Part shown: positions 12,091-59,147 of the stretch, piece by piece
How the letters are laid out: each line of letters begins with the position of its first letter
Numbering within the stretch: position 1 is the stretch's first letter
DNA from: Candidatus Woesearchaeota archaeon CG10_big_fil_rev_8_21_14_0_10_45_16
GTDB taxonomy: Archaea; Nanobdellota; Nanobdellia; Woesearchaeales; GW2011-AR9
Length of the DNA stretch: 64,000 nucleotides
Assembly (NCBI GenBank): GCA_002762785.1
Contig: PCXY01000004.1
Coordinates: 62,001 to 126,000, forward strand
Direction: 5' to 3'
Program-made: the position numbers and the translations under genes
The notes under the pieces: model-generated
Told to the model about the DNA's origin: nothing
The model's input: only the letters and a program-made list of their open reading frames with translations
The model's database searches: none

Positions 12091-12204
12091 TTAGGTGCAC
12101 ACTTGATGGTATTCATCGATATAGGTTTGTTTTGCAGTATGGTTCCAAAAAGGACCTTCATCATAGCGTTCTAGCAATTCTTGGATACGTTGTTTCATGT
12201 TCAT
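12091..12204 (-). CDS. 37-aa micro-protein, second gene of a coupled pair
   Basis: Starts MNMKQRIQELLERYDEG and ends HQVCT; a short amphipathic helix with an aromatic-rich C-terminal half and a single Cys. Its ATG overlaps the stop of the upstream 42-codon gene (ATGA), and a GGGGTGG site precedes it, so coupled translation is likely. No family is recognised. The terminator-like hairpin follows within about 15 nt. The combination of promoter, two ribosome sites, coupling and terminator supports a real operon. Confidence 0.6.
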   Translation of the reverse strand: MNMKQRIQELLERYDEGPFWNHTAKQTYIDEYHQVCT

Positions 12205-12329: not shown

Positions 12330-12368
12330 GGATATCACCTCGATATGAGATATTACTGTGGTTGGGGT

Positions 12369-12376
12369 TATATATA
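12369..12376 (-). promoter_or_regulatory. TATA box of the micro-protein operon
   Basis: TATATATA, fully palindromic, about 43 nt upstream of the first micro-protein start. Allowing about 25 nt to the transcription start leaves a short leader holding the GAGGTGAT site. Being symmetric, it could also fire rightwards into the structured spacer at 12385-12560. Confidence 0.5.
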
Positions 12377-12384
12377 CCTTAACC

Positions 12385-12560
12385 GGACTTGACCAGTGCG
12401 TCCAGTGGCCTTCTTCACTGCCTGAAACCCCAAAATTTTACGCTCTCAGAAGCTCTAACACTGGTCACTGGGGGCTGTCCAGTGCAGGGGGCTGCCATAA
12501 AAGAGTTGTCATGAGGGGCTGCCACGTATAGCCGGTGGCCATTCATTTTTGACAGAGCCG
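12385..12560. other. Repeat-rich, foldable spacer with no ORF
   Basis: This spacer lies between the micro-protein operon and the 121-aa membrane protein gene. It contains an 8-bp inverted pair (GACCAGTG at 12391, CACTGGTC at 12459), several further CCAGTG/CACTGG copies, three GGGGCTGYC copies, two CGTATAGCCG copies, and a small hairpin GCCAC...GTGGC. It is GC-richer than usual spacers here. It may be an untranslated RNA or an operator array; I recognise no known RNA family. Confidence 0.4.
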
Positions 12561-13390: not shown

Positions 13391-13945
13391 TTAAAGATTG
13401 TGGTTGCTTTGCAGATACTCAGCCAGTTTCCGGAAAGCCCGGGCCCGATGGTTCTGAGTATTCTTCTTCTCTAAGGGCATCTCAGCGAAGGTCTTTTTAG
13501 AATTTTCCGGGATGAAGATCGGGTCGAAACCAAAACCTAATCTCCCTTTTATCTCTGAAGCGACCTGGCCTTTCACTTCTCCTACAAAGACGACCGGTTC
13601 ATGTCCCGGTTCACAATAAGCAGCCCGGCAGACCATGCTTGCCGAACGGTCTTCAAAATCAGCCAGCATCTTTAAAGTTCTTTCATTCCCGACAATTTTC
13701 ACATAATCAGCAGCATATGGTCCTGGAAAACCGTTAAATGCATCAATGTGGACTGACGTGTCGTCAACCAAAACCGGTTCACCACACAACTTGACGGCTT
13801 CTTTTACTTTTGCCAGAACTATCTCTTCAGGTTTTCCTTGGATTTCCACCAGATCTAGTTTCCTGCCGATGATCTCAAACTGAGGCAGAGCCTGCTGGAC
13901 TTCCTGGACTTTATGCTGGTTTCCTGTAGCAAAAATAATTCTCAT
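13391..13945 (-). CDS. XTP/dITP pyrophosphatase, RdgB/HAM1 family
   Basis: 184 aa. Hydrolyses non-canonical purine triphosphates (dITP, XTP) to monophosphates and so keeps them out of DNA and RNA. The family signatures are the N-terminal [32 protein letters not shown] in the middle, and [11 protein letters not shown] with a later NHRARAF. Its ATG overlaps the lonB stop (ATGA), so translation is coupled to the protease gene. Confidence 0.94.
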
Positions 13946-29400: not shown

Positions 29401-31562
29401 TGGAACTGTAGAGTATCTCCTGGCTGGAAAGATGTTGTGGTTGAGTTCCTGCCGTAAGAAGAGAGCTGTTCTCCTTTGCGGGCAACCTGGACATTGCTCA
29501 CTTCCAAAGTTGAAGCGACGTTAAGGTCATAGGCTTGGGTGTTACGGCCGCCGTTTCCATCAGAGACGACGATACTCACGCGTGATACTCCTGTATTCTG
29601 AGGAATAATCGATACCCTGTTGTCCCGGACACTAACGTAATTTACATCGATAAAACGCTGGCCGTTGATCGTCGATTGTGATATGCTGACGCTGACGTCG
29701 TCTCCATCAGGATCTTCAGCTATGACATCATAGGTGTAGGTGCGGCCTCTTATAGCATCTGCTGGAGGCGTGGAAGTTATGGCCGGCGCGTCATTGTCGT
29801 TATTTACAGTTATCGTAAATGTATCCTGTGTTCTTCCATCGTTGCTGTCGGTGACTGTAAGCGTTATGAGGCTGTCGCCAGACTGGTTTGCCAACGGTTC
29901 ACATTCCAGGATGGTCACACTAAGAGAACAGCTGACGACGGATGGGTTGCTTTGGTCGTCAAGGCTGAAAGTTAGGTCGGTGGTGTCATCTTCTACGTCT
30001 GAAACGAAGTTGGTAAGATCTAAAGACAGCGCTCCAGAATCTTCGCCGACCATCTGATCAGGGACATCAAAGTTCGGAAGGTCGTTGATCTCGTTGACAG
30101 TCAAGATGAATGAACCGGTGGCTGAAAGGCCTTCAGTATCGCTAACAACAATCTCTAAAGTGTTGCTGCCGCTCCGGTCAGGAACAGTAGCACATTCAAG
30201 ATCATGTCCGCTGATACGACAGCTGACTGCGGAAAGGTCTGATTGTGATTGTAACCTTACTCTTAGGTCGGCGGCAGCATCTTCAACATCAGCAATGAAA
30301 GGGTCTAAGTCTATAGCCGTCAATCCTGAATCCTCGTCGACAGAAAGGTCATTTAAGTTGATAGTTGGCTGGTCATTGACGGGGTTCACGATGATCTTAA
30401 AGTCATCGTAATTACTTCCTCCGTCCCTATCGGTTACATTTAATAAAACAAGATTCTTCCCTATTTGGTTAAGTTGCGTCTCACAGACCAAAGTGTGGCC
30501 GTTGTCAAGACTGCAGTCAACTGCGGTCTCATCAAGTTCAGAAATGATGCTGTACTGCAGGTTGTTGGTCCTGTCTTCGATATCTCCAGAATGATCGCGA
30601 AGATCAACGCTGTACGATCCTGAATCTTCGTCAACATAAACGTCGTCTATCCTTAAAGTGGGAAGATCGTTAATAGGGTTGACGTTGATGGTCATTGTAT
30701 ATATCTCTGAATCAAACTGTCCATCCCTTACTTTGAACTTAAATGAATCGTAAGCTGCTCCATTCTGGTCGCGTCCAGGCATGTAGGCAAGCGATCCATC
30801 TTGCAATCCTGCTGCATCATATCTAACTCCTTCTCTCAGAACGCCTCCAGTGAATGTTAAGTCGCCACGGGCTGGAAGATCTGTGATGATGAATGTAGAG
30901 AAGTTATCTCCATCTGGATCGCTGAAATTGAAATCAGCTGCCGAGAAGGCATATTCACTATCTTCATCGGTAGTTATAGTGTTGTCGGCAGATGTAGGGG
31001 GAGCATTGTTGGCTGCTCCAGGAGTTCCGAAGTCGCCTGCACCGAACTGGATGGTCGCTTCTCTCCAGCTGCTTCCTAGATTGTTGTCGAGAGCAGGGTT
31101 GATTAGTTCCATGGATATCCCATCAGAAGGATCAGGGAAAGTGAGACCATCGTTATATTCAACACGGTCAACTTCCAATGAAGAATTGTCCAATAAGATA
31201 ACCTCATCATCAGCGTTGCCTAAGGTGATGCCTGCATATTCATAGTCACAATTAAAACCGCCATTTGTCAGGTTATTTGAATTTCTACAAAGAACGATAA
31301 AACCGTTGGCGGGAACAAGAAGAGGAGCGCCATTGTTGATAATGTGCGAATCAGAACCGTTATCTTTTACAGTCCAACCATCGATATCTACAGCATTATT
31401 CGGATCAGTATTGTACAGTTCTATATACTCACCCATAGATTCGGGACTCGCAGAAGGATTCTGCATGATCTCATTGATGACAACATCAGCCAAAGCAGCC
31501 TGTGCTGTGATCAGGACTAAAAGAATAGCGATAAAAAAAGGTACACCTTTATGTAGTTTCAT
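26472..31562 (-). CDS. Giant surface protein with lamin-tail domain and Ig/cadherin-like repeats
   Basis: About 1,696 aa from the ATG at 31562, which has a GAGGGGGAAAAC site directly before it (the track start is 7 codons earlier). Signal peptide; lamin-tail (LTD) domain, INEIMQNPS to about residue 180; cadherin-like domain; three to four repeats of about 95 aa each with a VDEDSG motif and a Cys pair (SC...LEC), likely disulfides; further Ig-like domains; CARDB-like domains near the C-terminus resembling those of the 478-aa neighbour; one membrane helix and a KGRRRAKR tail. It is an exported cell-wall-type adhesin or S-layer-associated protein by inference. Confidence 0.8.
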   Translation of the reverse strand: MKLHKGVPFFIAILLVLITAQAALADVVINEIMQNPSASPESMGEYIELYNTDPNNAVDIDGWTVKDNGSDSHIINNGAPLLVPANGFIVLCRNSNNLTNGGFNCDYEYAGITLGNADDEVILLDNSSLEVDRVEYNDGLTFPDPSDGISMELINPALDNNLGSSWREATIQFGAGDFGTPGAANNAPPTSADNTITTDEDSEYAFSAADFNFSDPDGDNFSTFIITDLPARGDLTFTGGVLREGVRYDAAGLQDGSLAYMPGRDQNGAAYDSFKFKVRDGQFDSEIYTMTINVNPINDLPTLRIDDVYVDEDSGSYSVDLRDHSGDIEDRTNNLQYSIISELDETAVDCSLDNGHTLVCETQLNQIGKNLVLLNVTDRDGGSNYDDFKIIVNPVNDQPTINLNDLSVDEDSGLTAIDLDPFIADVEDAAADLRVRLQSQSDLSAVSCRISGHDLECATVPDRSGSNTLEIVVSDTEGLSATGSFILTVNEINDLPNFDVPDQMVGEDSGALSLDLTNFVSDVEDDTTDLTFSLDDQSNPSVVSCSLSVTILECEPLANQSGDSLITLTVTDSNDGRTQDTFTITVNNDNDAPAITSTPPADAIRGRTYTYDVIAEDPDGDDVSVSISQSTINGQRFIDVNYVSVRDNRVSIIPQNTGVSRVSIVVSDGNGGRNTQAYDLNVASTLEVSNVQVARKGEQLSSYGRNSTTTSFQPGDTLQFQVTLHNQFTDDDHPLIRQDVEPIIEQIVMNVPQIPSELGIPLRFNRGQDGELLFLGPSEEKSVQFDYTIPLSWNDGNHLIQFFVNGADRDVPQHFYGDVFDIKVDVQREPHSILITSATFNDEDFSCLAKQNNVRMHLTATNIGLEQNENLVAKVFLGEELLRKEEFRMNANMIDVPVSVPLDLHDLTGEHTLRVEISDSDVPGSAPFDMAEVTVDMENCAPQVDDSLSSQVFQFDEDTTSQINLAGMVLDVEDSQTLSLRVENDNANVNVVVSDDAVTITPIRDYFTPAGETDTFTLIAEDGTAATRVEVRYVIKQLADDGVQISSRTPGPDDEIVLNQNKDEDTTFSVDVTNDDAIPITYIWTLRNTAGGSAENLNVNIDKFDLDSTSVNAGRYEVKASITYFNAQGQLQTVSESWTVIVVDRPIGFDDFPGSSTTDIAAEANINNVELVLENANGKIEWLQGLDLSQIGDISQHVTITSNSVAVDTENAPKLAGKARITLNKKFSDPAILTSEGFNHGSFLLCENCVIENSDPLTFTVESFSTYKVEERKNAAFSTSDIFFDDVAPGETGITIVTVQNTGSLDTISNITYKVAETGYGILLPENLPTELAPGEKIAFELEATVPEDEEDGKHEIGVLKLAGTAKGASLEWGQAIYLKPKSFIIIESFEINGKSSNDLSIEESNEIEVEIRNNLDIDLNDVEVTITLLDVDGDDLDEDAEDQDIDAGDKEKFKVEFDLGNEEIDEEEYTFLVEVEGEDDNDVIHKTSEEFTVKIDLENHNLVIDRAVLSPNSLQCTANTRLDVTVKNLGRSDEDDVVVRVSNAALGLDLSRDEIEIDEFTASNNEEDETFNFNIGDAKSGSYPIEVEVLRGSKKEDSQTITLTVSDCGVSQSVGQQQQLGLDNYAQRFQNELSRQVMARQQYNQPLRETSVRASFRDSTTYLFVLGGLLFLGLVAFILSIAVMTSRKGRRRAKR

Positions 31563-31601
31563 GTTTTCCCCCTCTCCTAACATTGTTAAAAATGTTCCTG
31601 C

Positions 31602-45262: not shown

Positions 45263-45279
45263 TCCCTCGCATCACTTTT
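45263..45279 (+). repeat. Direct repeat, right copy
   Basis: Second copy of TCCCTCGCATCACTTTT. It contains the stop codon of the convergent K+ channel gene (45272-45274), as expected if the channel gene originally ended right next to tRNA-Leu. Confidence 0.75.
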
Positions 45280-45601
45280 TCTTTCTTTTGTTCCAGGGTT
45301 CTTCCAACACAGAAACGATATGCTCAAAATATTTCTCTTGTCGCTGTACGTAATGGCCAATGACTGTGCCGATCAGATAGAGCATGATGGCGATGCCGAA
45401 AACAGCATAGAAAGGTGTAATTATCTTGGTACTGGTATGTGTTGGCACCAGATCACCGTAACCGACAGTCGTCAAGGTCATGGAAGAAAAATAGAACGCA
45501 TCTACATAAGACCAATCTTCCAGATGGTGGAAATAGATCGTGCCAAAGCTGAGAAGGATTATTGTTAGGACGAGGGAGTAGGTGATTCTTCTGGCTAGCA
45601 T
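45272..45601 (-). CDS. Two-helix potassium channel
   Basis: 109 aa. First membrane helix (about residues 4-24), pore helix and the selectivity filter TTVGYGD, then the second helix (FYAVFGIAIMLYLIG) and a basic tail NKRKKK. This is a minimal KcsA-type tetrameric K+ channel without a RCK domain or voltage sensor. Its stop codon lies inside the right copy of the tRNA-derived repeat. It is divergent from the PAC2 gene. Confidence 0.9.
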   Translation of the reverse strand: MLARRITYSLVLTIILLSFGTIYFHHLEDWSYVDAFYFSSMTLTTVGYGDLVPTHTSTKIITPFYAVFGIAIMLYLIGTVIGHYVQRQEKYFEHIVSVLEEPWNKRKKK

Positions 45602-45692
45602 GGAATGAAGGATATACTTAATGGTATTTAATGTTTTGGTCTTTCTCCACTTTTCCCAAAAATATATAAACCAGATTCATTTTAATCAGACC

Positions 45693-46502
45693 ATGTCACA
45701 ATGGCAAATAACTCAGGAAGAGAAGAAACTTCCCGTCTTAAAGAATCCTTTGTTCATCGAGGGTCTTCCAGGTATCGCTAACGTCGGCAAGATTGCCACC
45801 GATTTCCTCATAGAAGAATTGAACGCTAAAAGATTATACTCCTTCTTCTCGTACCGTTTCCCGCATTCTGTCTTTGTCGGAGAAAATAACCTTATCGAAA
45901 CTCCAAAGATCGAGATCTATTACAAAGCGTTCGGCAAGAACAGCAAGAAACGTGATCTGCTTATCCTTACTGGCGATATCCAGCCGATCGATGAAGAAAG
46001 CTGCTACACTTTCTGTGAAGAGGTCCTGAAGGTCGCTCTGCAGTTCAGATGCAAAGAGATGATCACCACCGGCGGTATCGGTCTGCAGAACATTCCCGAC
46101 GAGCCCAAGGTGTATTGCACCAGCAATGATGCAGGTCTTTTCAAAGACTACACCAAGAAAGGCTTAGGGGTGGAGAAAAATATCTTCGGTGTCGTCGGCC
46201 CGATCATCGGTGTCTCTGGCGTCTTGTTGGGATTAGGCAAGAAACGCGGTGTCAAGGCCGTCTCTCTGTTGGCGGAAACGTTTGCTCACCCGATGTATCT
46301 TGGGGTGAAAGGCGGCAAGGAAATACTGAGCGTCATCGAGAAAAAATTCAGATATGGTGTTGACCTTAAGAAAGTTTCCCAGGAGATCGTGGAGATCGAA
46401 AAACAGCTGATGAAGAAGACCAAAGAATGGGCCACCGAAGCGGTTTCCCATTCCCGAGCCGGCGCAAAACCGAAAGCGAAAGAAGTCAGCTACATCGGTT
46501 AA
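45693..46502 (+). CDS. PAC2-family proteasome assembly chaperone
   Basis: 269 aa from the ATG at 45693, set by TATATAAA centred 26.5 nt upstream; the track start is 24 codons earlier. PAC2 features include FIEGLPGIANVGKIATDFLIEEL near the N-terminus, LILTGDIQP in the middle and an ITTGGIGLQ strand. Archaeal PbaA/PbaB homologues interact with the proteasome or related gates. A coiled coil (about 225-245) and basic tail follow. A hairpin and T-tract end the unit. Confidence 0.88.
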   Translation: MSQWQITQEEKKLPVLKNPLFIEGLPGIANVGKIATDFLIEELNAKRLYSFFSYRFPHSVFVGENNLIETPKIEIYYKAFGKNSKKRDLLILTGDIQPIDEESCYTFCEEVLKVALQFRCKEMITTGGIGLQNIPDEPKVYCTSNDAGLFKDYTKKGLGVEKNIFGVVGPIIGVSGVLLGLGKKRGVKAVSLLAETFAHPMYLGVKGGKEILSVIEKKFRYGVDLKKVSQEIVEIEKQLMKKTKEWATEAVSHSRAGAKPKAKEVSYIG

Positions 46503-46565: not shown

Positions 46566-46641
46566 CCTTTCTGTTTTTCTTTAATTTTATAGTCGGAGAT
46601 CAAGCACAATCTTTATAAACCATCCAGATATACTTCTAGCG

Positions 46642-48639
46642 ATGCAAAAAAAGAGGTTTGAACTAGGTTTAGGTAGCTTTATTTCTAATTCTAACACTAG
46701 AAAAGGCCAGGTTACAATTTTCATCATTCTAGGCATCGTGATCCTGCTGGTTATCGCCCTTATTATCGCTTTCCAGACTGAGATCATCAAGTTCAAGCCG
46801 GAAGAGATCGTCCCTACCGAACGCGGCCGGGTCGAGAGCGTCATCTCATCCTGTCTGCAGGAGATCGCCGAGGATTCTTTGACTAAGATGGGCCTGCAAG
46901 GCGGTTATGTCACTCTCCCGGATGAGATCCTTAACGATGGCGGTAAACACTTGGCCATCTCTTCATTTGTGGTCGTCCCTTACTGGGCTTATGGTGAGAA
47001 TGTTGCCGTTCCTTCGTTAGAAGATCTTCAGGACCGCTTGGATGAGGCCATCGAATCCCAGATCAGAAGCTGTGTCTTCGATCCGGAGAAGTTCAGCGAG
47101 ACTTATGAGATCAGCGAACGTAGCGGCATCACTTCACAGACTCAGCTTAATGACGCCGGCATCACTTTCAACGTCAATTGGGATATCCAGATCAGGAACA
47201 AGCAAGGGGAAGTGGTGACGGAAGTCAACAATTTCGCCTATGATTCTGACATCAAGCTCAAATCAGCCTACGAAACTGCGAAGAGGATCGTGGAAGTAGA
47301 GATGCAGGACCTTAAGTTGGAGGATATCACGCAAGACCTGGTCGCTCTTGAACATCCTGACGTGCCGGTGGTCGGCTTTGAAGTCAGCTGTTCAGAGAAA
47401 CGCTGGGAGATCGCTGAGGTGAAACAGGCCGTCAAGGATCTGCTGCGGGTCAATATCGCCGCTCTGCAAGTACGGGGAACTGATGTTATCGAGTATCCGG
47501 AAGACTTGCCCTATTACCAGAACCATTATCTCTGGGATCTGGGAGAATTCAGCCAGAATGATGTTTCCGTCGATTTTTCATATCAGGACAATTACCCTTT
47601 CACTTTTGACGTTTCTCCGCGAAGCGGCAAGTTCATCAAGACCAGTTCATTCGGCCAGAAGAACAGCTTTCTTTCTTCTGCTTTCTGCCTGCAATCCTGG
47701 AAGTTCACCTATGACGTCAGCTATCCGGTGCAGGTTACCATCACTGACGATACTACTGGTTATGCGTTCAGGATCGCTTTCACCGTCCATCTTGTCAACA
47801 ACATTCCAGACCGGAGCCAGCCGGGAACTTCAGGCGTGACCCAGACTTTCCCTGCTTTCAGCGACGATGATTTCTGCGCCCAGAAAAGCATCCCGATGAC
47901 TGTCCGCAGCTACGAGTTGGTCGACAATCCGCAAACAGGGGTTTATGACCGCATCCCGCTGGACGATGTTGATCTCACTTTTACCTGCCTGAAGTTCCAA
48001 TGCGATATCGGCAGCACCCAATATGATTTCGGCGGCCAGGGCGATGTTTCCGCTGTAAGGACCAATTTCCCCTACTGCGGCGGCGGCATCATCCGCGGAC
48101 AGAAAGTCGGATTCAAAGATGATTGGGTGCGGGTCATTCCGGCTGCTGACAAAGTTTCCGAGCTGAACCTTATCCCTGAATTTGCTGTCTCAGCCGGCAG
48201 TATCAATATCCTGGCTCATGAGCTTCGTGCTGACGGCACCATCGGTCCCGGCCGTGAACTTCCTGAAGATGTGACTTCCCTGATCTCTATCTATTTCGAC
48301 AAAGACGGCACGTTCCTGGACCAGTCGCAGCAGCATTTCCATGAATCCAGCGTCGTGATGTCGCCAGGCATGGAAGAACGAGCTATCAATAATCAGAATC
48401 TTCGGTTTTTAGCGAAAGCCGATTTCACGTATCCTCTTGAGATTACCATCATCAAAGAAGGCGAATACGCTGGCGGATACAAAGGCAACTGGACTGTCCA
48501 CTGGAATGACATCTCTAATGTTAAAGAGTTGACGTTCCATGTCTTGAATGCGCCAGGCGGTTCGGATGAGAACCTTTACGAATTTATCTTGGGATTAGAT
48601 CAAAACAGCAGGCTGCTGCCGCTGCCGGAGTTAGGTTAG
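46642..48639 (+). CDS. Pilin-like anchored surface protein, first gene of the lysin operon
   Basis: 665 aa. After a short leader, TRKGQVTIFIILGIV resembles a class III (type IV pilin-like) signal: a basic-Gly junction followed by a helix of about 25 residues. The remainder is extracellular beta-rich sequence with scattered Cys pairs and no enzymatic motif. TTTATAAA centred 26.5 nt before the ATG marks the operon promoter. The next gene starts 5 nt after the stop. I infer a structural, filament- or anchor-type subunit. Confidence 0.7.
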   Translation: MQKKRFELGLGSFISNSNTRKGQVTIFIILGIVILLVIALIIAFQTEIIKFKPEEIVPTERGRVESVISSCLQEIAEDSLTKMGLQGGYVTLPDEILNDGGKHLAISSFVVVPYWAYGENVAVPSLEDLQDRLDEAIESQIRSCVFDPEKFSETYEISERSGITSQTQLNDAGITFNVNWDIQIRNKQGEVVTEVNNFAYDSDIKLKSAYETAKRIVEVEMQDLKLEDITQDLVALEHPDVPVVGFEVSCSEKRWEIAEVKQAVKDLLRVNIAALQVRGTDVIEYPEDLPYYQNHYLWDLGEFSQNDVSVDFSYQDNYPFTFDVSPRSGKFIKTSSFGQKNSFLSSAFCLQSWKFTYDVSYPVQVTITDDTTGYAFRIAFTVHLVNNIPDRSQPGTSGVTQTFPAFSDDDFCAQKSIPMTVRSYELVDNPQTGVYDRIPLDDVDLTFTCLKFQCDIGSTQYDFGGQGDVSAVRTNFPYCGGGIIRGQKVGFKDDWVRVIPAADKVSELNLIPEFAVSAGSINILAHELRADGTIGPGRELPEDVTSLISIYFDKDGTFLDQSQQHFHESSVVMSPGMEERAINNQNLRFLAKADFTYPLEITIIKEGEYAGGYKGNWTVHWNDISNVKELTFHVLNAPGGSDENLYEFILGLDQNSRLLPLPELG

Positions 48640-48643
48640 ATAG

Positions 48644-51600
48644 ATGGTTAGACAGATGAAAACGAACAGAAAGATGCAATTGGCGACTGTACTTGTGCTT
48701 TTGCTGATCGTAAACCTGCCTATCGTCACTGCCTTGGAGATCTCTAACATACAGGTTCAGGATATTACAGATGATTCTGCCGTCGTCACCTGGGAAACCG
48801 ATGAACCGGCTGACAGTTTCGTGCGTTTTGGAGAAGATCCGCAAAATCTCATGTCACGAGGAGACGCCAGCAGGGTAACTGATCATAGTGTCGCTCTTGA
48901 CAACCTGCAGCCGTTGACAACGTACCAGTTTGAGGTAGAAAGCAATAAAGTTGTCGATAATGTTGAAGGCGCCTATCATTCCTTCCAAACTTTGGCTGTG
49001 GATATCACGGCGCCAGGGTTGACTATCAGCGCGCCTGAGGCGGTGCAGGGCAGCCGGGTCACGATCAACGGTACGTCTGAGAAAGGCGCAGAACTGCAAT
49101 TGTTTGTCAACGGTATCTTTGCCGCGAAACAGCAGGTGGAATCACAGAGTTCTGCTGAACTGGTGCCGTTTGTCTTTACCGATGTCTTATTGGTCGATAA
49201 TACTTTAAATGAGATCAAAGTTGACTCCAAAGACCGCAGTGGCAACACCAATACTGCTTCTGTCTCTGTGTCGGCTGATGCTAAACGGCCGGTGTTCGAA
49301 TTGACCCCTTTGCCGGCGATCATCGGCGAATTGTCTGTCAAATTACAAGGCAAGATTTCCGAAGAGGTTTCTTACGAAGTTTTTGTCAACAACGGTTCCG
49401 TCGTCCAGAAAGACGGCCTGGAAGTGGATGAAACTCTTAATCTCCAGGAAGGCAACAACACAGTCAGGATCACTGCCGTGGACAAGGCCGGCTGGGATGC
49501 AGAAGAGACTTTCAATGTTCTGGCTGATTCAAGAGTGCCCAGCATCAGGGCCGAATTGGCGAAAGGGTATGAGTATTATGAAGGCCGAGCTGAATCTGAT
49601 ATCACAGGAGAGACAGAAGCAGGAGCGACCGTCTACCTCTATATCTATCGTCCTTTGTCGTATGAGTTCAAGCCAGATTTCAGCAAAGCGGTAGCAAAGA
49701 CCACCGCCGATGTCAACGGTTCGTTCAGCTTTAACGATGTCAAGTTCTCACAGTCTGTCTTCGATGCCTCTTTAGGCGACCTGAAACCGAGAGAGGTGCC
49801 TTCTGACTTACTCCAGGCGACCATCTATCCGATCGAGCAGATCGCTGCTGATCAGGAGAACACTTATTTTGTCTATCTTATCGCTGAAGACCAGACCGGC
49901 AAGACTGCCTATTGGCAGCAGACCGTCAATGTCAACCGATGTTTAAGCACTAATTTCGCATTTGGTGTGGAGACTTTGACCCAGTTTACCGGTCCTTTAA
50001 AGCTGAATCCGATCTTGATGGATGAAGGTCGTCAGGAAGTACAAGCTACGTTCAAGCTGAATTATCTTGGTAAAGGATTACCGGAAGTCGGCCCTTCCGG
50101 TGATGAGATCAGCAAAGGTTTCCGGCTGCAGGGAACACCGCGGATAGAGCCGGCCTGTACGCAAAGCATGCGTGATGATGACAAGTTTGGTGTCGGCTGC
50201 ACTATCTTTCCACGAAGCACCAGGAATATTGTCAAGAGTCCCGATGATTCCGCCATCTTCGGCCTCTGGCAGCTAGGTTCCACGCAGGACATGAGCAAAC
50301 GTGAGGACGATTTCTGGAACGACTTCGAGAAGAGGCAGATCGTCTTCCCATTGAAAGTGCAGATCGAATATCAAGAGAGGACCGGCAAGGATGCTCAAGG
50401 CAACGATCAATGGAGCGAGACCAAAGTACAGACTTCCTGCCAGGACTTAAGTTATTTCGTCGATGTTCCGTTGAAGAGCAATGAGCTATTGCCTGACTTC
50501 ATCGCCGATGAAGGTATCGATGCGTTAGATTTTACTGTCAAGCAGATCCAGAATGCCCGCGAGTATGTGGAAACAGCATATATCATCACCGGTATCAGCT
50601 GCATCAGTTCATTCTTGCTGCGGTTTGTAACCAGAGGCGTCCGTATCGCCACTTCAAGATTGGAAGCGTATTTCAGCGCGGTCAAGACAAAATTGACGCC
50701 GGCGCAGATGGAAGAGCAAGGCGCATGTCCGGTTCCGGGCAAGGGTCAGGAAACATTATATCTGCAATCCACTGTTGAGAATTGGTATAGGATGTTAAGC
50801 GCCGATCAGGCTAAATATGAAGCCAGCATTCCGGCTAAAGTAGTGGAAACCTTCCTTGCCGACGGCGGTTCCATCGGCGATGCTACCAAGAAAATATTAT
50901 TGGATGAACGTTGTCCGCGGACGGCTGGCGCCTGGAAACTGGAAGCAGCGTTGGATACGGCCTATAAGTGGACCTGCGACCGCGCTTTCTGCCGGGCTGT
51001 ACCGGCCGGCTGGACGGCTACCAAGACGGAAGAAGAGATCTCTAAAGTTATTTTAGAAGGACAGCAATGCGCCGTCACCGGTAGAGGCATCCCGCTGCAG
51101 AAAGTGGAAGGGTGTAAAGAGCTGTTGAGGCAGGATGCAACTCCTCTTGATCCGACACTAAAGATCGATGATGTTGGCGGCGTCTGTTGGCGAAGAGGAG
51201 ATGGCAGCGACCAGTTGTATTATTATGATGAACGGAACCAGGATTCGGCTTTAGCTGCAAAAGGTATCTATCGTCTTACGCCGGTGCGAAGAGCTTTAAG
51301 TAATGTCGGAGATCTAAGCGAGCCGCTGGTCGTGACACAGCCGGACGGATCTGATTATTATGTGGCTGGTCAGGACAAGAGCTGTCAGCAAGTCTGCGAT
51401 GACAGAAGGAAGCCTGGATTTGAAGAAGATAATCTGTTGTCTTATGCTAAGTTAGGAGCTCAAGGTCAGGATCCGGGGTTAGTGAACCATAATAGTAATG
51501 TCGGTATCGGCTGTTACAAAGAAGAGTTGGTGGATGGCGTCACCCAGTTATTTGACAAAGATGGAGATCAGCTAGGCACGAAAGATGATAAGGAAAGGTA

Positions 51601-54109
51601 TGCTGCTGGTTACACCAACGATTGTTTCATCAACCAGGAATCGGCAGGAGAAACGTTCTACACGCAGTGTGTCTGCATGGGGAAACAGCCCAACAAGCAG
51701 ACTTATAGCAACACTGATCGGACACTAAGGACGGCAGAACCCAGAGACGAAGAGAATAACGTCGAGGAAGAATGGTCTTACCGCCAGGATCGCATCTTTA
51801 AAGAGACCTCCGGACCAAACCGGAAAGGGACTTATTATCCAGATATTAGATATTATTCCGGCCGTGATCTCTCCGGCGCGTTCGGCGCTAATTATATCTT
51901 TGACTATTTCCGAGATCAGGAGAAAGTTGCTAAAGTTGATCCGCATGCCGGTTTCATCGAGACCGCGCAGACCTTGTGCACATCGGGAATATTAAAGAAT
52001 TTGGTCATGTTAGAGAGCATGCTGACCGGTCTGCGGAACTGTCTGGAAGAAGCGAAGACGACAGAGTTCCATGATGCCGGCATGTGCAAGGCCTGGTTCT
52101 CACAGCAGGTCTGCGGCTTGGTCTATAAAGGGGTTGCTTCCTTGCTGACGAGCTGTACGCCGAGCAACTTTGATGATGTCGGTAAAGATAGTATCTTTGG
52201 TGATGTCGGCGCTTTTGTCTCTGAAGGCACGAGGGCGATGTCTTCTTCGTTACAGTCGTCGATAACTGATCTGAAAGAAGATTATGGCAACGCGCAGTTG
52301 AACCAGTATTTCTCCGGCGGCGCGCAGGGATTCGCCCAATCGTTATGTATGGCTGCGTTCGGTTTTGACTTTCCGCTGTTCAGTGATGAGTTCCTCTTAG
52401 ATGCGGCGTATGCCTTCCCGACCCAGTCCAGCGTGCTGGTCGGTCCAGCCTATCGGGAACTGAGCACTTTTAATCCAGCGAAACAGACAGCCACGTTCAA
52501 TTATGAAGTTGGCGCTGCGATCACACCTGGTTGTCGTATTAGAAGATGGGATGTTTCTTTGAAATGTGTTGGTCCTGAAGACCGAGGACTGAGTGGTGTC
52601 GATCCAACCTGTAACGGTGTGGGCTGTGATTGTCTCAATGCTCAGCCGACCAGCCAGTTTGCCGGTGAGAGAGTCATGTCTTTGAAACAAGGACACAACC
52701 TGCCGTCGGGAAGGTTGTTCTCGGTGCCGATCGAGTCGCCGCAGAGAGTGGATTCACACTTCCGTTACGACCACGTTAAAGTAGAATTGGAACTGGATCC
52801 AGCGGAAGATCCTGAATTCTGCATCGATCCGGAAGTACGCCAAGGCAACAAAGCAGTATATTATTATCCTATCACCGATACCACGCCGGCAGGTTTCGTG
52901 CAGTGTGAAGTAAATGCTGCTACTGGCCAATATTCCTGTCCGGAGTTCGCCAAATTGTTCGGTTTCGGCGGCGCTTACTTGCAGGAACCGTACATGACTT
53001 GTTTTGACAAGAAAACCAGCAATTATGTTGATTGTCAAACGCCAAACCTGTTCCTTGACGGCGATATTATCCAGGTACGGGTCAGTCTTAATACAGACGG
53101 CAAGCCGTACTGTCTGAAACGCACCGTCACTAACGTGGCCGGCATCCCGGATAATGTGATCTACCAAGTTCCTGAACAGCTTAATGGACCGCTGAACATT
53201 GAGCAAAGCCTCGGCACAGTACAGGCTAGCATGTTCCGCGGGGGCGCCAATGTTCTGGAGAAAGTTGCGGCTGCTGACAGGAGCAATAGGCTGGGCTGTA
53301 ACATCGCTTACCCTGGCAGTCCGGCTACGGTGGATGCCACCAAAGAATATGAGTTTAAGTATAAATTTGTAACTGCTGACGCGCTGGAGTTGTCTATTCC
53401 TCCTGGCGTCTCTGTCCTTGGTACATATACTGATAAAGGCGGTCTATTAGCTTTAAGTGAGAGGACGCAGTTGACTCTCGATGAGATCAACCGGGCGCAA
53501 TTTGACGTCCAGGGTTTCGTCGCTTCCAATGTTCTGGGAGGTATCAATCCTGCGGAACAACCCGGACAATGTACTTACCGGATCAGGGCTCAGAGCGCTT
53601 TCTCCCAATCAGATAATGTCCGGAATATCGCTGTCGAGTATGAATTGTTAGATGTCGATGAAGGCGGCAGCTGCTTACTGCCGAAGAACCAGGTCAAAGC
53701 GACGCAAGGCAAGGCCAGACATCCCGGTCAGATAAGGATCCAGCTGCAGGAAACTGCTGTGGCGCAGGCCGGCGGACTGCATGAGTTCTTTATGGCTCAG
53801 AACTACGATCACGTCCATGCTTTAGCTTTAGATATCATGAACCGGCATGAAGGCGACTTCACCAATGCGGTAGCTATATATTATGACGTCGCTTCCTGGA
53901 TCATGAAAGGTAATCGAGAGAAAGATCCGAAGAAATATAGCAACGGCGTGCAGAACGGTCTGAATTATTTCTTCCAGAGAAAATTCGGCGGTGTGGATGC
54001 GCCGGTCTATGGTCCGGATGTCACGTCTAAACCTGAATATGACAAGATCAAGAATTATTTATGTGAAGTGGATAAAGTGTTCGGTGGTGTGAATCAAGGA
54101 AAATGTTAA
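48644..54109 (+). CDS. 1,821-aa multidomain surface protein
   Basis: Signal peptide (about residues 5-31); fibronectin type III domain (about 32-115, VTWETDEPADSFVRFG); two or three Ig-like domains (about 120-300); a beta-rich section; a hydrophobic helix near 640-660 (AYIITGISCISSFLL); a long Cys-rich region (about 680-1650, with CQQVCDD and CDCLNAQP among others) and a helical C-terminus. The internal helix could anchor it so that the Cys-rich part lies on one side. No known full-length family. Overlaps the next gene by 7 nt, so production is coupled. Confidence 0.75.
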   Translation: MVRQMKTNRKMQLATVLVLLLIVNLPIVTALEISNIQVQDITDDSAVVTWETDEPADSFVRFGEDPQNLMSRGDASRVTDHSVALDNLQPLTTYQFEVESNKVVDNVEGAYHSFQTLAVDITAPGLTISAPEAVQGSRVTINGTSEKGAELQLFVNGIFAAKQQVESQSSAELVPFVFTDVLLVDNTLNEIKVDSKDRSGNTNTASVSVSADAKRPVFELTPLPAIIGELSVKLQGKISEEVSYEVFVNNGSVVQKDGLEVDETLNLQEGNNTVRITAVDKAGWDAEETFNVLADSRVPSIRAELAKGYEYYEGRAESDITGETEAGATVYLYIYRPLSYEFKPDFSKAVAKTTADVNGSFSFNDVKFSQSVFDASLGDLKPREVPSDLLQATIYPIEQIAADQENTYFVYLIAEDQTGKTAYWQQTVNVNRCLSTNFAFGVETLTQFTGPLKLNPILMDEGRQEVQATFKLNYLGKGLPEVGPSGDEISKGFRLQGTPRIEPACTQSMRDDDKFGVGCTIFPRSTRNIVKSPDDSAIFGLWQLGSTQDMSKREDDFWNDFEKRQIVFPLKVQIEYQERTGKDAQGNDQWSETKVQTSCQDLSYFVDVPLKSNELLPDFIADEGIDALDFTVKQIQNAREYVETAYIITGISCISSFLLRFVTRGVRIATSRLEAYFSAVKTKLTPAQMEEQGACPVPGKGQETLYLQSTVENWYRMLSADQAKYEASIPAKVVETFLADGGSIGDATKKILLDERCPRTAGAWKLEAALDTAYKWTCDRAFCRAVPAGWTATKTEEEISKVILEGQQCAVTGRGIPLQKVEGCKELLRQDATPLDPTLKIDDVGGVCWRRGDGSDQLYYYDERNQDSALAAKGIYRLTPVRRALSNVGDLSEPLVVTQPDGSDYYVAGQDKSCQQVCDDRRKPGFEEDNLLSYAKLGAQGQDPGLVNHNSNVGIGCYKEELVDGVTQLFDKDGDQLGTKDDKERYAAGYTNDCFINQESAGETFYTQCVCMGKQPNKQTYSNTDRTLRTAEPRDEENNVEEEWSYRQDRIFKETSGPNRKGTYYPDIRYYSGRDLSGAFGANYIFDYFRDQEKVAKVDPHAGFIETAQTLCTSGILKNLVMLESMLTGLRNCLEEAKTTEFHDAGMCKAWFSQQVCGLVYKGVASLLTSCTPSNFDDVGKDSIFGDVGAFVSEGTRAMSSSLQSSITDLKEDYGNAQLNQYFSGGAQGFAQSLCMAAFGFDFPLFSDEFLLDAAYAFPTQSSVLVGPAYRELSTFNPAKQTATFNYEVGAAITPGCRIRRWDVSLKCVGPEDRGLSGVDPTCNGVGCDCLNAQPTSQFAGERVMSLKQGHNLPSGRLFSVPIESPQRVDSHFRYDHVKVELELDPAEDPEFCIDPEVRQGNKAVYYYPITDTTPAGFVQCEVNAATGQYSCPEFAKLFGFGGAYLQEPYMTCFDKKTSNYVDCQTPNLFLDGDIIQVRVSLNTDGKPYCLKRTVTNVAGIPDNVIYQVPEQLNGPLNIEQSLGTVQASMFRGGANVLEKVAAADRSNRLGCNIAYPGSPATVDATKEYEFKYKFVTADALELSIPPGVSVLGTYTDKGGLLALSERTQLTLDEINRAQFDVQGFVASNVLGGINPAEQPGQCTYRIRAQSAFSQSDNVRNIAVEYELLDVDEGGSCLLPKNQVKATQGKARHPGQIRIQLQETAVAQAGGLHEFFMAQNYDHVHALALDIMNRHEGDFTNAVAIYYDVASWIMKGNREKDPKKYSNGVQNGLNYFFQRKFGGVDAPVYGPDVTSKPEYDKIKNYLCEVDKVFGGVNQGKC

Positions 54110-54657
54110 GCAAGAAAGGCGGATTACTGGTACAGGTGTTGGTGGTGCTGATAGTTATCATATTAACCAGCGGCTTGATCTTGTATCTGGTTAGTTCAGG
54201 AGTATTGACCCCTGATCCGGCAAGAGCTGAGGTCGATATCCTGAATGCTGAGTTTATCCCTTTGGAAAGGACCGGGACGTTGACGATAAAAGAGTTTGAT
54301 ATGTGTGAGTTTGTTGACGAGGAATTGAACTGTTTCCACAAGACCAGCGAGTTCCAGCGTGGCACTAATATCTATCTCAGAGCTTTGGTGGAGAGCACTG
54401 TCTTTGGTGGTCAGTTAAGTGTGGGTCGTAATTATCGCGTTGTTGACTCACAGGGGAAAGTGATTTTAGAACTAGAGGACACAAACCAAAGGGATTTTGA
54501 TTATGATCTTGAAGGGACCAAAGAGAACTTGGCTTTTTCGGACACTTTGTTTTTTGAAGACGAAGTTCCTGCTGGAGACTATGAATTACAGCTTATAGTT
54601 GAAAATCAGTTGACGATGAAACAAGCGACATTGACGAGGGGGTTTAGACTAATATGA
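54103..54657 (+). CDS. Small pilin-like membrane protein
   Basis: 184 aa. N-terminal SKKGGLLVQVLVVLIVIILTSG is a short basic leader plus one hydrophobic helix, as in pilin-like proteins; the remaining 150 residues are beta-rich with one Cys pair (CEFVDEELNC). AAGGA precedes the ATG within the upstream gene, and its stop overlaps the lysin gene start (ATGA). Likely a minor anchor or tip subunit by analogy only. Confidence 0.65.
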   Translation: MLSKKGGLLVQVLVVLIVIILTSGLILYLVSSGVLTPDPARAEVDILNAEFIPLERTGTLTIKEFDMCEFVDEELNCFHKTSEFQRGTNIYLRALVESTVFGGQLSVGRNYRVVDSQGKVILELEDTNQRDFDYDLEGTKENLAFSDTLFFEDEVPAGDYELQLIVENQLTMKQATLTRGFRLI

Positions 54658-57600
54658 GGAAGATAATCTTTGTCTTAATGCTCGTACTCTCGCTTCCTCT
54701 TGTTGTTAGTCAAGCTTCTGTAACACCGGGTGCTGCTGCTGTTGGATCTGATTCCCTTTCTCAGGCATCATCTTCAACCCTAAACATTATTCATATTGGT
54801 GATTCTCATGTTGCTGGTTCTTATGGTTATGGTCTTCATCAATTATTGCTGCCAGTTGCAGCCCATAGAGAAACGTATGGTTGTGTTGGGGCTAGTGCCT
54901 CTTGGTATACGGCAGAACATAGTTGTAATCCTAGTCTTGGTTCGAGATCATCTATTGATCAGAAAACCAGTGATCTGATTTCAACCATAAACTTTCCTGA
55001 TTATATTAAAAAAAACAACTTTGACGTTGCTATAATCTCTCTTGGTACTAACTTCAGATCGGGTGATGTTGTTACTGGTAATGAGAGAGAATCTGTTGAA
55101 AAATTGCTGGATGCTGCTACACTGGTTGAGAAATGCTTCTGGGTGGGGGCACCGGTAACCAAAGACCCGAATGTTAATCCAAATACTATCAATACTGCTC
55201 TAAAGACATTAGTTGAGAATAAAGGCTGTAAGTTTATAGACTCAACTGACTTCACCTCTACCCCTAATATTAACGAAGGTTCCGGCTCCACGAAAAACCT
55301 TCTTCACTTTAACTCTGTGGGGGGAAAATCATGGGCGTCTGGCGTTTGTGGATCTATCATAAATGACATCGCTCCAGGAACGACATTAGCTGATTGTATC
55401 GGCGAGCAGACAGAAGATCCAGAACCAGTAAATGTGGAAAGAGACGAGTTTGTGCCAGATTACTCTCAACAGACTGGTCCGACGCCGACGATAACAGAGA
55501 TTGATCAGGTCTGGCAGCAGATCAGTGGTGTCTTGAAGATAAACCATATGTTAGATGTCTGGGTGCCTAAATTAGGGTGGCAATCCGTACAGCCTGTAGT
55601 ACCTAAAGATGCACCTATCACTGCAACTACAGCAGGGATTACAGGTTCTGATAACGATATCCAAGCTCTCGCAAAGATCTACCGAACATATGGTTCTGCT
55701 GTTGAAGCTGCTGCAATATTTCACACAGTTGAGCCATCATTGATAATGGCAATCATCTATAAAGAATCACTGGGGAGAGTAGATGCCGTTTCTTCCTCTG
55801 GGGCAGTTGGTCTTATGCAGTTGGTTGCTGGAACTGCCCGCGACGCTGGTCTTAACGTTCCAGAATATAATAGGATAACCATCACTCTTTCGTCAGGAAG
55901 AGAGATAAATGTTCCTGAACATTGTCGCTCAATAGATGTCACTGGCTGTGATAAAGTTAATGACGAGCGATTTGATCCCACCAAAAATATCCTTGCTGGG
56001 GCTAGAAGCTTGCGTGTGTTCTTTGACAGCAAGACAAGAGGCGGTTCTTGGGAGAAAGCTATCAAAAGATATCGTGGTAGTACAGATGATATACAACAAG
56101 CGTATTATAATAAAGTGGTCCAGTATCAAGCTATTGCCGAACAGATTATCAGGCAGGGCGGTTCGGCAGTTTCACCGGTGTCGACTGATGCTCTCTGCTT
56201 CCCATTGACGCAGGAGAGTTTAAACACTAATAAAGGTAGAAATGGAGATAATGATGATTGGGGTAATTCAAGAAGCGAAGGAGACAGATGCCACGCTGGT
56301 AACGATCTTTTTGAACAAGGACCAGGTGAAGTCATCGCGATTACAGATGGGACTGTTGTGGCTATACAAAAAGGTTGGACGCGATGTGAAGACGGCTGGG
56401 GTGGAACAGCAGGTACTCCGAAAGGTGTTAGTGCGGTTTTAGTCTACCATCCAAGCCTTGGTAAGACTATTAATTATGGAGAAATCGATGATGATAAAGT
56501 TGAAGTAAACGTTGGAGGTCAGATCTCGAAAGGCCAATTTTTAGGTGTTGTCAGTTACTGTGATACTTTCCATCTTGAAGTTTATAACGGTGAGCAGAGG
56601 ACGACGATAAAATGGGAGCCACCAAAAGGCCAAACTGTTTCTGGAGGTAATACTAAAGATTACTGCGAACAGAACTATTTCAACACTAAACCGGCTGCTC
56701 TGGAAGATCCGCAAGTTCTATTGCGTCAGATCAAAGGAAACTTCTGTGAGAAAGATACCGGTAAATTTTTAGTACAGGCTCCTATAGTGCCTACTCCTGA
56801 AGCAACATTGGCTTCTATCCCCACTGGCGCATCTGCCTCTTCTTGTAGCAACGACGAAAATTTCGTTGATCCTTCTAAAAGCACAAGGGCTAATCTTTAC
56901 AAAGATAAATGGGTGAAAGCATTAGGTGATGCAGGTGTCCATGGTACCACTTTTGTCAGTAAATTACAATCCAATGGGCCTGAGGATCAAAATCTTCTCA
57001 ATGAAAAAGGGAGGTTGACGTTGGTCTTCGCTCCTTGTTCTACTGATTTTAACAAACCGATCGAGATGGTCTATTATTTCCACGGCAACAATGGATTCTC
57101 ATATCAGGATGGATCAGGGGCCTATGATGACTTCAATAAGCGCCTTGCTCCTCAGATTAAGAAGATGATGGACGCTGGAAGGAATTTTGTAATTGTGTTT
57201 CCAGAGTTACCTTGGTCAGCTGGTGACAATCCTGGAGTAAGCAAAAAAAATCACGGAAAGGTATGGGCCGACGGTGATTCTAATCTTGTTGCTCTTCATA
57301 ACGATGTCTTAAGATTGTTGAATCTTAGATTTTCTAATGTCGTTGTTGGTTACATCTCTATGACTGGTCACAGCGGTGGCGGTTCACCATTGAAACGAGG
57401 TGTAGAAGTGGGAGCTATCCAAGAATTAAATGTTAATAAGATCACTTTCTCAGATGCTGATTATGGCTGGCAAGGATCTGGTTCTTCATCATTGTATGTC
57501 TACAACAACTACGTGAAAGATCATCCGAATGTGGAACTTAATCTGTTAGTGCAAGCCCCAGCCAATATAGGGGTTCACGAGCCAACTAAGTATTCAGTTG

Positions 57601-57851
57601 ACTTTGTTAAGCAGATTGGTGGTTCTACAGTGTCTGATTGGAGTACTCCGGGAAGCTGTGAAAATAGTAGATGTAAAGACCTGATAAAAACTCCAGGAGT
57701 AGGATCATCGAATGATGGTTCATATGTATTCTTTGTTCCAGGTCACGAGAATATAGCTTATGTTCCTTTAACGCTGGGGCATACGACAATCGGCACCATC
57801 TCACTAGCCTGGCAGAGACCATCGCCTTCAACAACAGTAGCCAGTAACTAA
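54654..57851 (+). CDS. Secreted four-module hydrolase (SGNH + lytic transglycosylase + M23-like + alpha/beta-hydrolase)
   Basis: 1,065 aa with a Sec signal (1-20). (1) SGNH/GDSL hydrolase, about 43-250: GDSH with Ser51, GTN at 131-133, LLHFN with His218. (2) SLT lytic transglycosylase, about 340-500: YKESLGRVDAVSSSGAVGLMQL, catalytic Glu371. (3) M23-like LytM domain, about 515-650: HAGND zinc ligands (His547, Asp551) and His640, but the YGH His is Glu610 and the first His of HxH is Thr, so it may be inactive. (4) alpha/beta-hydrolase-like, about 790-1050: FHGNNG and GHSGGG with Ser907. Modules 2 and 3 belong to murein-cleaving families; the cell that expresses it should lack murein. Confidence 0.85.
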   Translation: MRKIIFVLMLVLSLPLVVSQASVTPGAAAVGSDSLSQASSSTLNIIHIGDSHVAGSYGYGLHQLLLPVAAHRETYGCVGASASWYTAEHSCNPSLGSRSSIDQKTSDLISTINFPDYIKKNNFDVAIISLGTNFRSGDVVTGNERESVEKLLDAATLVEKCFWVGAPVTKDPNVNPNTINTALKTLVENKGCKFIDSTDFTSTPNINEGSGSTKNLLHFNSVGGKSWASGVCGSIINDIAPGTTLADCIGEQTEDPEPVNVERDEFVPDYSQQTGPTPTITEIDQVWQQISGVLKINHMLDVWVPKLGWQSVQPVVPKDAPITATTAGITGSDNDIQALAKIYRTYGSAVEAAAIFHTVEPSLIMAIIYKESLGRVDAVSSSGAVGLMQLVAGTARDAGLNVPEYNRITITLSSGREINVPEHCRSIDVTGCDKVNDERFDPTKNILAGARSLRVFFDSKTRGGSWEKAIKRYRGSTDDIQQAYYNKVVQYQAIAEQIIRQGGSAVSPVSTDALCFPLTQESLNTNKGRNGDNDDWGNSRSEGDRCHAGNDLFEQGPGEVIAITDGTVVAIQKGWTRCEDGWGGTAGTPKGVSAVLVYHPSLGKTINYGEIDDDKVEVNVGGQISKGQFLGVVSYCDTFHLEVYNGEQRTTIKWEPPKGQTVSGGNTKDYCEQNYFNTKPAALEDPQVLLRQIKGNFCEKDTGKFLVQAPIVPTPEATLASIPTGASASSCSNDENFVDPSKSTRANLYKDKWVKALGDAGVHGTTFVSKLQSNGPEDQNLLNEKGRLTLVFAPCSTDFNKPIEMVYYFHGNNGFSYQDGSGAYDDFNKRLAPQIKKMMDAGRNFVIVFPELPWSAGDNPGVSKKNHGKVWADGDSNLVALHNDVLRLLNLRFSNVVVGYISMTGHSGGGSPLKRGVEVGAIQELNVNKITFSDADYGWQGSGSSSLYVYNNYVKDHPNVELNLLVQAPANIGVHEPTKYSVDFVKQIGGSTVSDWSTPGSCENSRCKDLIKTPGVGSSNDGSYVFFVPGHENIAYVPLTLGHTTIGTISLAWQRPSPSTTVASN

Positions 57852-58318
57852 TCTTCTTTGATCTTGTTCATGCCGCCGCGGTTCTGGCCGATCATGTTCT
57901 CGATCATCTCCAGGACTTCATGGGGAGAATTAACATCTTTGATCTCGAAGGTGGTCTCACCACCAGCTTTAAGGTAGACGGAACCGTAATCAAGAATACG
58001 ACCGATACGGCCTTGTTTGATATTAAGATCGGGAACAAAACTTAGAGGGTGATAATACACGTTCTTTTTATCCTGTTTTATGAAGCCATTGATGATCTCC
58101 ATCTTGTCTTCCCGTATCTTGTAACGGGTCGTCAGTCGTGATATTTCAGCTGAAAACAGAGCAACACCAGCCAATCCCAGTACGCCGTACTCGATGGCTT
58201 GTGGAAGAGGGCTGTTTAACCTGGTCACGCCTAACAATCCCAGCAGAAAAGCGGCACAGCCGTATTCTATCAGAAAAGCCTTCCGAGATTTACGTAAAAC
58301 AAGTATGGAATTGCTCAT
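57848..58318 (-). CDS. Membrane protein with bacterial PH-like domain
   Basis: 156 aa from the ATG at 58318; the track start lies beyond the shared TATA. Two membrane helices (about 14-60) are followed by a bPH2-like beta domain with TTRYKIREDKMEIINGFIKQDKKNVYYHPL, the typical start of such domains, and an acidic C-terminal helix. Function unknown; such proteins often organise at the membrane. Convergent with the lysin gene (4-nt overlap) and divergent from fpg. Confidence 0.75.
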   Translation of the reverse strand: MSNSILVLRKSRKAFLIEYGCAAFLLGLLGVTRLNSPLPQAIEYGVLGLAGVALFSAEISRLTTRYKIREDKMEIINGFIKQDKKNVYYHPLSFVPDLNIKQGRIGRILDYGSVYLKAGGETTFEIKDVNSPHEVLEMIENMIGQNRGGMNKIKED

Positions 58319-58337
58319 ATTGGGTATAAATGCTAAA

Positions 58338-58349
58338 ATATTTAAATAT
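58338..58349. promoter_or_regulatory. Shared palindromic TATA for the bPH2 and fpg genes
   Basis: ATATTTAAATAT, a perfect 12-bp palindrome, centred 25.5 nt from the minus-strand ATG at 58318 and 24.5 nt from the plus-strand ATG at 58368. The 49-bp spacer has no other TATA fitting both starts. Confidence 0.65.
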
Positions 58350-58367
58350 CTTCCCTTATGAGAAGTC

Positions 58368-59147
58368 ATGCCAGAACTGCCTGAAGTGGAGACGGTTGCC
58401 AGACAACTGAACGATAAGATCAAAGGCAAGACCGTCAATAGAGTTGAAATATTTGATCAGAAAGTGATTGACAGTAAGCTGAAAGTGGTCCCTTACAAGA
58501 TAAAAAGCATCTACCGTAGAGGAAAATCGATCATCATGGCATTAAACAACGAAAAGTTCATCCTGACCCATCTGCGGATGACCGGCCATTTCTATTATGA
58601 TCCCAAAGAGAAGACGAGATACTGCGCTGCTTTGTTCCATTTCTCTGACAACACGACTTTAAGCCACAACTCTATCCGGCGTTTCGGCCACATGAAACTT
58701 CTAAGCAAGAAGGAATTAGATGCTGAACTTAAGAGGTTAGGTCCTGAACCTTTAGAAATAACTGAGAAAGAGTTTGTCTCTTTATTGGATTCATTCCCGC
58801 AGGCTAATCTCAAGAATAAATTGTTGGATCAGCATTGTATCGTGGGGATAGGCAACATTTATGCGCAGGAAGCGATGTACTCGGCCAGGATCCATCCTGA
58901 AAAGAAGATAGCTGATGTTTCCCCGGCAAAACTGAAACAGCTCCATCATCATGTCCAGCGGATATTGAACCTCTCCATCGTTAACAACGGAACGACGGTC
59001 TATAATTACGCTAATATCGACGGCAAAGGTGATTTCCAGCATCTGCTTTCAGTATATGGGAAAGAGAAGTGTCCTCAAGGACATCAGATCCGAAAGATAC
59101 AAATAGGGGGACGTGGTACCTATTACTGTGATAGGTGTCAACGATGA
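58368..59147 (+). CDS. fpg: Formamidopyrimidine-DNA glycosylase
   Basis: 259 aa. Removes oxidised purines (8-oxoG, FapyG) and cleaves the abasic strand. N-terminal PELPEVE with Pro2/Glu3 catalytic groups; HLRMTGH; the helix-two-turn-helix with GIGNIYAQE (usually ADE); and a C-terminal zinc finger (CPQGH...CDRC). Length is normal. Fpg is typical of bacteria and patchy in archaea, so transfer is likely. Coupled by ATGA to a small zinc protein. Confidence 0.94.
   Translation: MPELPEVETVARQLNDKIKGKTVNRVEIFDQKVIDSKLKVVPYKIKSIYRRGKSIIMALNNEKFILTHLRMTGHFYYDPKEKTRYCAALFHFSDNTTLSHNSIRRFGHMKLLSKKELDAELKRLGPEPLEITEKEFVSLLDSFPQANLKNKLLDQHCIVGIGNIYAQEAMYSARIHPEKKIADVSPAKLKQLHHHVQRILNLSIVNNGTTVYNYANIDGKGDFQHLLSVYGKEKCPQGHQIRKIQIGGRGTYYCDRCQR

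Follow-up and report, generated by a model that had tools for sequence, protein, structure and literature searches.

Four genes in the window, that is, the whole 64,000-nt stretch of DNA analysed here from a Woesearchaeota-type DPANN genome of 1.18 Mb (98% complete), are real, tightly coupled and kept together among the relatives compared, all of which are uncultured, metagenome-type assemblies. The order of genes 1, 2 and 3 is fixed and genes 1 and 3 carry prepilin-type N-termini; at the fourth position (the slot), catalytic domains are swapped between lineages and a small module is retained that is confined to the slot. The cassette as such is well documented, and from it we infer how the enzyme would be docked, what the prey would be and how assembly would proceed. 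We give even chances to a surface complex in which two prepilin-like proteins and a disulphide-rich giant hold one of many interchangeable secreted hydrolases in a docked state. With somewhat less confidence, we read this complex as an archaeal contact weapon or feeding device, whose ~45-residue dock might let lineages swap wall-cutters against bacterial neighbours. For the vast uncultured Woesearchaeota, a conserved cassette with swappable peptidoglycan-cutters points to bacteria as the targets and names proteins that can be tested.

Layout and surroundings of the locus

All four genes lie on the same strand behind a single archaeal TATA box (Table 1). Genes 1 and 2 are separated by a 4-nt gap, and genes 2/3 and 3/4 overlap by 7 and 4 nt, respectively. 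An earlier note on this DNA had described one TATA-led unit encoding proteins of 665, 1,821 and 184 aa together with a hydrolase; the box is visible in the sequence, and the reading frames agree with these lengths. Its spacing figures of −7 and −4 nt also stand, whereas the 5-nt gap that it gave between genes 1 and 2 is 4 nt. A chance operon was ruled out by synteny, gene 2 directly following gene 1 in 79 of the 79 readable loci (the named loci plus the window). The concern that the genes might not be kept together in related genomes was thus answered by one conserved unit.

The flanking genes are constant across the loci of the window's family, while the slot content varies. A PAC2-family gene lies upstream, and bPH_2, MutM/Fpg-like and phosphoesterase genes follow downstream in loci long enough to show them. 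Just 5' of the PAC2 gene, the reverse strand of the window (45272–45601) holds a 109-aa ORF in which two hydrophobic stretches accompany TVGYGD, the filter motif of potassium channels. Elsewhere in the window, the reverse strand (26472–31583) encodes a giant of 1,703 aa that combines a lamin-tail domain with repeated domains of cadherin/Ig-like type.

Table 1. Features of the cassette and its flanks (positions in the window)
Feature	Position	Strand	Basis or remark
PAC2-family gene, conserved 5' flank	45621..46502	+	
Archaeal TATA box TTTATAAA, 5' of cassette	46612..46619	+	~25–30 nt ahead of first ATG
Gene 1, 665-aa prepilin-like surface protein, 8 Cys	46642..48639	+	homologues in relatives
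Gene 1 N-terminal helix, residues 20–49, motif K[GAS]|Q-x-x-x-F, Phe at +5	46699..46788	+	alignment and model
Gene 1 transthyretin/CnaB-like domain, residues 413–515	47878..48186	+	VIA-align
Gene 2, 1,821-aa secreted giant, 40 Cys	48644..54109	+	adjoins gene 1
Gene 2 FnIII/purple-acid-phosphatase-N domain	48740..48952	+	Pfam fn3/PAP-N match
Gene 2 Ig-like (Glucodextran_B) domain	49331..49528	+	Pfam match
Gene 2 Cys-rich helical domain, ~1050–1160, limits approximate	51791..52123	+	hhalign
Gene 3, 184-aa prepilin-like protein, [KQR][GA]|xxxx[E/Q]	54103..54657	+	window's family only
Gene 4, slot hydrolase, 1,065 aa, signal peptide	54654..57851	+	
Gene 4 GDSL/SGNH esterase-like module	54795..55322	+	weak Pfam match; GDS motif intact
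Gene 4 shared ~45-aa module (EIDxVW), residues 279–317, proposed dock	55488..55604	+	iterated profiles
Gene 4 SLT lytic transglycosylase core	55710..55859	+	Pfam 3e-14; catalytic Glu present
Gene 4 M23 peptidase-like module (HAGND)	56292..56555	+	weak Pfam match and 34% identical homologue
Gene 4 alpha/beta-hydrolase-like module (GHSGG)	56910..57614	+	
bPH_2 gene, conserved 3' flank	57848..58438	−	
MutM/Fpg-like gene (name from own sequence), conserved 3' flank	58368..59147	+	

The phylum-wide core of genes 1 and 2

Genes 1 and 2 are an ancient, phylum-wide core to which neither gene 3 nor the enzyme belongs. Of the 145 genomes in the order set, 140 had a relative of gene 1, as did 131 of 147 sampled more widely in the phylum, some from other orders and some as small as ~0.5 Mb. 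The eight cysteines of gene 1 are invariant among 75 aligned sequences, and its prepilin-like motif shows Gln at +1 with Phe at +5 in all 74 rows. The predicted structure (pLDDT 89.4) has a single long helix at the N-terminus plus a large, mixed head, of which residues 413–515 are the only stretch found to match solved folds (VIA-align, Z up to 10.1, rmsd 1.8 over 83 residues; Foldseek of the whole chain was poor); a fold shared by such models, here or in gene 2, does not in itself demonstrate function. Membership of gene 1 in a known family was rejected, with neither a Pfam match nor a PDB sequence match.

In gene 2, 19 cysteines are conserved in >85% of 67 sequences of the order set. The earlier description of this protein as FnIII/Ig/Cys-rich agrees with its fn3/PAP-N and Ig-like matches and its cysteine content. 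The predicted structure of residues 410–1500 (pLDDT 81) gave Ig-like matches only (Z about 6) and no match to a beta-propeller. An identity as PilY1 or a known adhesin gained no support, as neither a sequence match nor, for the modelled residues, a convincing fold match was obtained. A Pfam scan found no SLT domain in gene 2; fam00969 is reported as a giant with a murein transglycosylase domain in Woesearchaeota/Pacearchaeota (PMC8204110).

A second gene-1 paralogue lies with a 1,068-aa partner on another contig of the window's genome (L077), and a Cys-rich helical domain of ~105 residues is common to this partner and gene 2 (hhalign probability 99.5). Because of this pair and the domain shared by both giants, genes 1 and 2 are placed in an anchor-plus-giant superfamily. 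In the order's other families, a larger cluster is frequent, running from a gene-1 paralogue, a ~1,050-aa partner, a variable protein and a ~255-aa membrane protein to gene 1, gene 2 and a ~280-aa membrane protein. The ~280-aa gene 3' of gene 2 was considered as an equivalent of gene 3 and rejected, since its family, akin to the ~255-aa upstream gene, consists of multi-pass membrane proteins. In the window's own genome, three gene-1 paralogues, the L077 one included, were each observed beside large secreted proteins (L077, L078 and L079; 1,068; 704; 309, 1,584 and 2,039 aa). This suggests an expanded anchor-plus-giant superfamily, with paralogue counts in this genome resting on searches.

That genes 1 and 2 span the phylum while gene 3 and the slot do not implies that the lytic part is a family-level addition and that the basic role of genes 1 and 2 is not lysis, a point against the device reading. 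The earlier view of one surface device for cell contact with a wall-degrading enzyme fits the conserved unit, with the lytic part now seen as such an addition. The same breadth of gene-1 relatives, down to the smallest genomes sampled, and the paralogous anchor-plus-giant pairs elsewhere in the window's genome would suit a phylum-universal housekeeping envelope complex for attachment or scaffolding, to which gene 3 and the slot were added for scavenging dead bacterial walls. We consider this explanation improbable, as it does not account for the constancy of module and position next to gene 3 among such varied enzymes.

The exchangeable slot and its shared module

Gene 3 and the enzyme slot were present only in the window's family, in which genes 1 and 2 adjoin the PAC2 gene; gene 3 was detected in 39/140 genomes, every one in this family. 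The slot gene usually starts a few nucleotides from the end of gene 3, in many cases overlapping it by 4 nt, and its product has a signal peptide. It nearly always encodes a secreted multidomain hydrolase with catalytic modules that vary by genus, namely SLT, M15, M23, M74, Amidase_2, cell-wall hydrolase, DUF2272 and phage-lysozyme domains, together with GDSL, metallophosphoesterase, endonuclease/phosphatase, polysaccharide deacetylase and FGE types. The earlier view of four coupled parts needs correction here, in that the hydrolase is not a fixed part: the slot is exchangeable, and catalytic modules are swapped between genera.

Among the slots of 35 genomes scanned, a peptidoglycan-hydrolase domain was found above the Pfam cut-off in 22 and more weakly in 7. 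The others held only DUF2272 (one genome), only esterase, phosphoesterase or FGE-type domains (four) or nothing recognised (one). The roughly five slots without a recognised peptidoglycan hydrolase count against the device reading, as does the AlbA/Schlafen-type ATP-binding gene at the slot position in two genomes (L037:14219-15481 and L094:11677-13020). In one genome (L119/L186), an enolase gene is inserted between gene 3 and the hydrolase.

The active-site motifs of the window's own slot hydrolase, gene 4, are intact (SLT Glu, HxGxD, GDS and GxSxG). Judged from its sequence, gene 4 is a predicted archaeal peptidoglycan hydrolase, combining a signal peptide with a recognised catalytic domain that retains active-site residues. 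The earlier note had called it a four-module hydrolase, which captured its multi-module nature but missed a further small module at residues 279–317.

This small module was the one short segment common to the slot proteins in an all-against-all comparison. Iterated profiles placed it in 22 of the 23 first-slot proteins, at variable positions along the chain, and in four second-slot genes; the M74 slot enzyme that lacks it is a point against the device reading. The consensus is C....RC.EIDEVW..I...........VW......W......Y, and the only invariant residue is the Trp of EIDxVW. In a leave-one-out test of the profile, with near-identical members removed and 5,267 ORFs searched, 24 of the 26 held-out members were recovered at E <= 3e-5 and the other two at 0.004 and 0.055. 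Matches beyond the training set were limited to two truncated slot proteins, and none fell outside slot proteins. A comparison of 25 module members with Pfam returned no dockerin and no consistent family, and the module's identity as a known domain was rejected on these inconsistent matches and the lack of anything convincing in the PDB.

A location-independent test was then made by running the module profile on 140 whole genomes. It returned 38 copies in 34 genomes, all in the window's family; the other 91 genomes yielded neither it nor gene 3. Of the 38 copies, 34 shared contig and strand with gene 3 and lay 85–5,587 nt downstream of it; the remaining four came from a fragmentary genome or were close to contig breaks. 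Both gene 3 and the module were present in 33 genomes, whereas six had gene 3 alone, one (68% complete) had the module alone and 100 had neither. The association was significant (Fisher p = 8e-25; 2e-5 inside the family alone), and these values overstate its strength because related genomes are non-independent.

Small modules common to otherwise different lysins are typically wall-binding domains. The shared module could accordingly bind walls, as in endolysins, and the enzymes could be free secreted lysins that merely share an operon, which would fit their ordinary signal peptides and the lack of any further membrane anchor in the window's enzyme. However, the module is slot-confined, with nearly all copies downstream of gene 3, and other SLT ORFs in the same genomes (e.g., G008:C11, G026:C6, G012:C1 and G014:C3) do not carry it. 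The 4-nt overlaps also imply a tie to gene 3, and wall binding by free lysins is rated rather unlikely. Under the preferred docking reading, gene 3 is the best dock candidate, since it and the module co-occur and do so only in the window's family.

Prepilin signatures, assembly and the proposed device

The motif of gene 3 has G/A in 27/28 sequences, followed at +5 by Glu in 17 and Gln in 7. Prepilin-like N-termini are thus present in both genes 1 and 3, with motifs conserved in the alignments, consistent with the earlier claim that both are pilin-like. For bacterial systems, a much larger subunit with a hydrophobic position 5 has been proposed as the first, tip subunit (PMC5207764). By analogy, the invariant Phe at +5 would mark gene 1 as a pilus-tip subunit.

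An A24 prepilin peptidase is encoded in the window's genome (G000:C6:31321, 1.1e-14). The TadC/GspF platform (T2SSF, PF00482) had no match there, nor in 28 of the 37 members of the window's family searched, and the same search was positive in 13/14 control genomes and in relatives from the order. Assembly by the known route is therefore unlikely and a classical pilus doubtful. A 763-aa FlaI/TadA-like ATPase is encoded ~31 kb past the window's end, unlinked to the cassette; its best match is archaellum FlaI (1.6e-34, below the model's cut-off). The earlier statement that the window lacks a secretion ATPase held for the window proteins scanned, but the genome does contain the A24 peptidase and this ATPase. 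The accompanying remark that the genes do not form a recognised system remains apt, as no library used recognises the cassette.

A FlaI-like ATPase of ~770 aa is near-universal, with tandem membrane proteins of ~190 aa encoded a few kb away at most. In the window's genome, the 763-aa ATPase lies near three such tandem proteins (L080, G000:C4:146000-165999; 10183–12474 and 13683–15396). This pairing, recurrent across the order, may represent an unrecognised secretion or assembly locus. If these membrane proteins were an unrecognised platform, genes 1 and 3 could be minor pilins of a true but reduced type IV pilus driven by this ATPase; the A24 peptidase, the likeness of the ATPase to FlaI and its regular neighbours, and +5 residues suited to a tip subunit plus a Glu5 pilin are all compatible with this. 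Nevertheless, the missing T2SSF match, the lack of an identified major pilin and the distance of the ATPase locus from the cassette make such a pilus unlikely.

In the device that we favour, genes 1 and 3 would hold the complex at the cell surface, with the large gene 1 product at the outer end, like GspK-type tip subunits, and gene 3, bearing Glu/Gln at +5, beneath it. Gene 2 might serve as an adhesive shaft reaching outward, and the module would dock the enzyme, most likely onto gene 3. Held at a bacterial surface, the enzyme could cut peptidoglycan and further wall polymers, whether to feed, to enter or to kill. To our knowledge, these archaea are not expected to have peptidoglycan of their own, so the target is most likely another cell.

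The cassette resembles GspK-type tip subunits and minor-pilin/PilY1 tip complexes in having a large prepilin with a hydrophobic position 5 beside a smaller Glu5 one (PMC5207764) and in encoding them with a giant adhesin-like protein. It differs in its far larger head, the lytic enzyme within the operon, the lack of a beta-propeller match in the gene 2 model and the lack of a TadC/GspF match in the genome. Previous reports describe peptidoglycan hydrolases of Woesearchaeota/Nanoarchaeota, with bacterial targets proposed in predation or episymbiosis (PMC8204110, PMC9723730, PMC12352652). The slot enzymes are likewise secreted and of the same catalytic families as the archaeal peptidoglycan hydrolases (PMC12352652) and the Woesearchaeota murein transglycosylases (PMC8204110, PMC9723730), whereas those reports, in their accessible parts, treat the enzymes singly and mention no fixed surface cassette, swappable slot or shared module. 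The joining of a constant small module to varied catalytic domains recalls cellulosome dockerins as well as polymorphic-toxin and secretion-adaptor modules, but the present module is archaeal, lies beside prepilin-like genes and has no consistent Pfam family.

A search of the main texts of published papers found no description of the cassette, the exchangeable slot or the shared module. The type IV filament platform was not detected in the window's genome, and no library used names genes 1–3 or the module; should the ATPase locus prove to assemble the cassette, it would count as a type IV filament variant. If the device reading is correct, bacterial toxins and cellulosomes, with their constant module and variable warhead, would gain an archaeal counterpart, and prepilin-like proteins would probably be in use here with no pilus platform.

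As a separate observation, an SLT gene lies ~3–9 kb from the A24 prepilin peptidase gene in four genomes of the window's family (G023:C2, G026:C6, G032:C78 and G033:C127).
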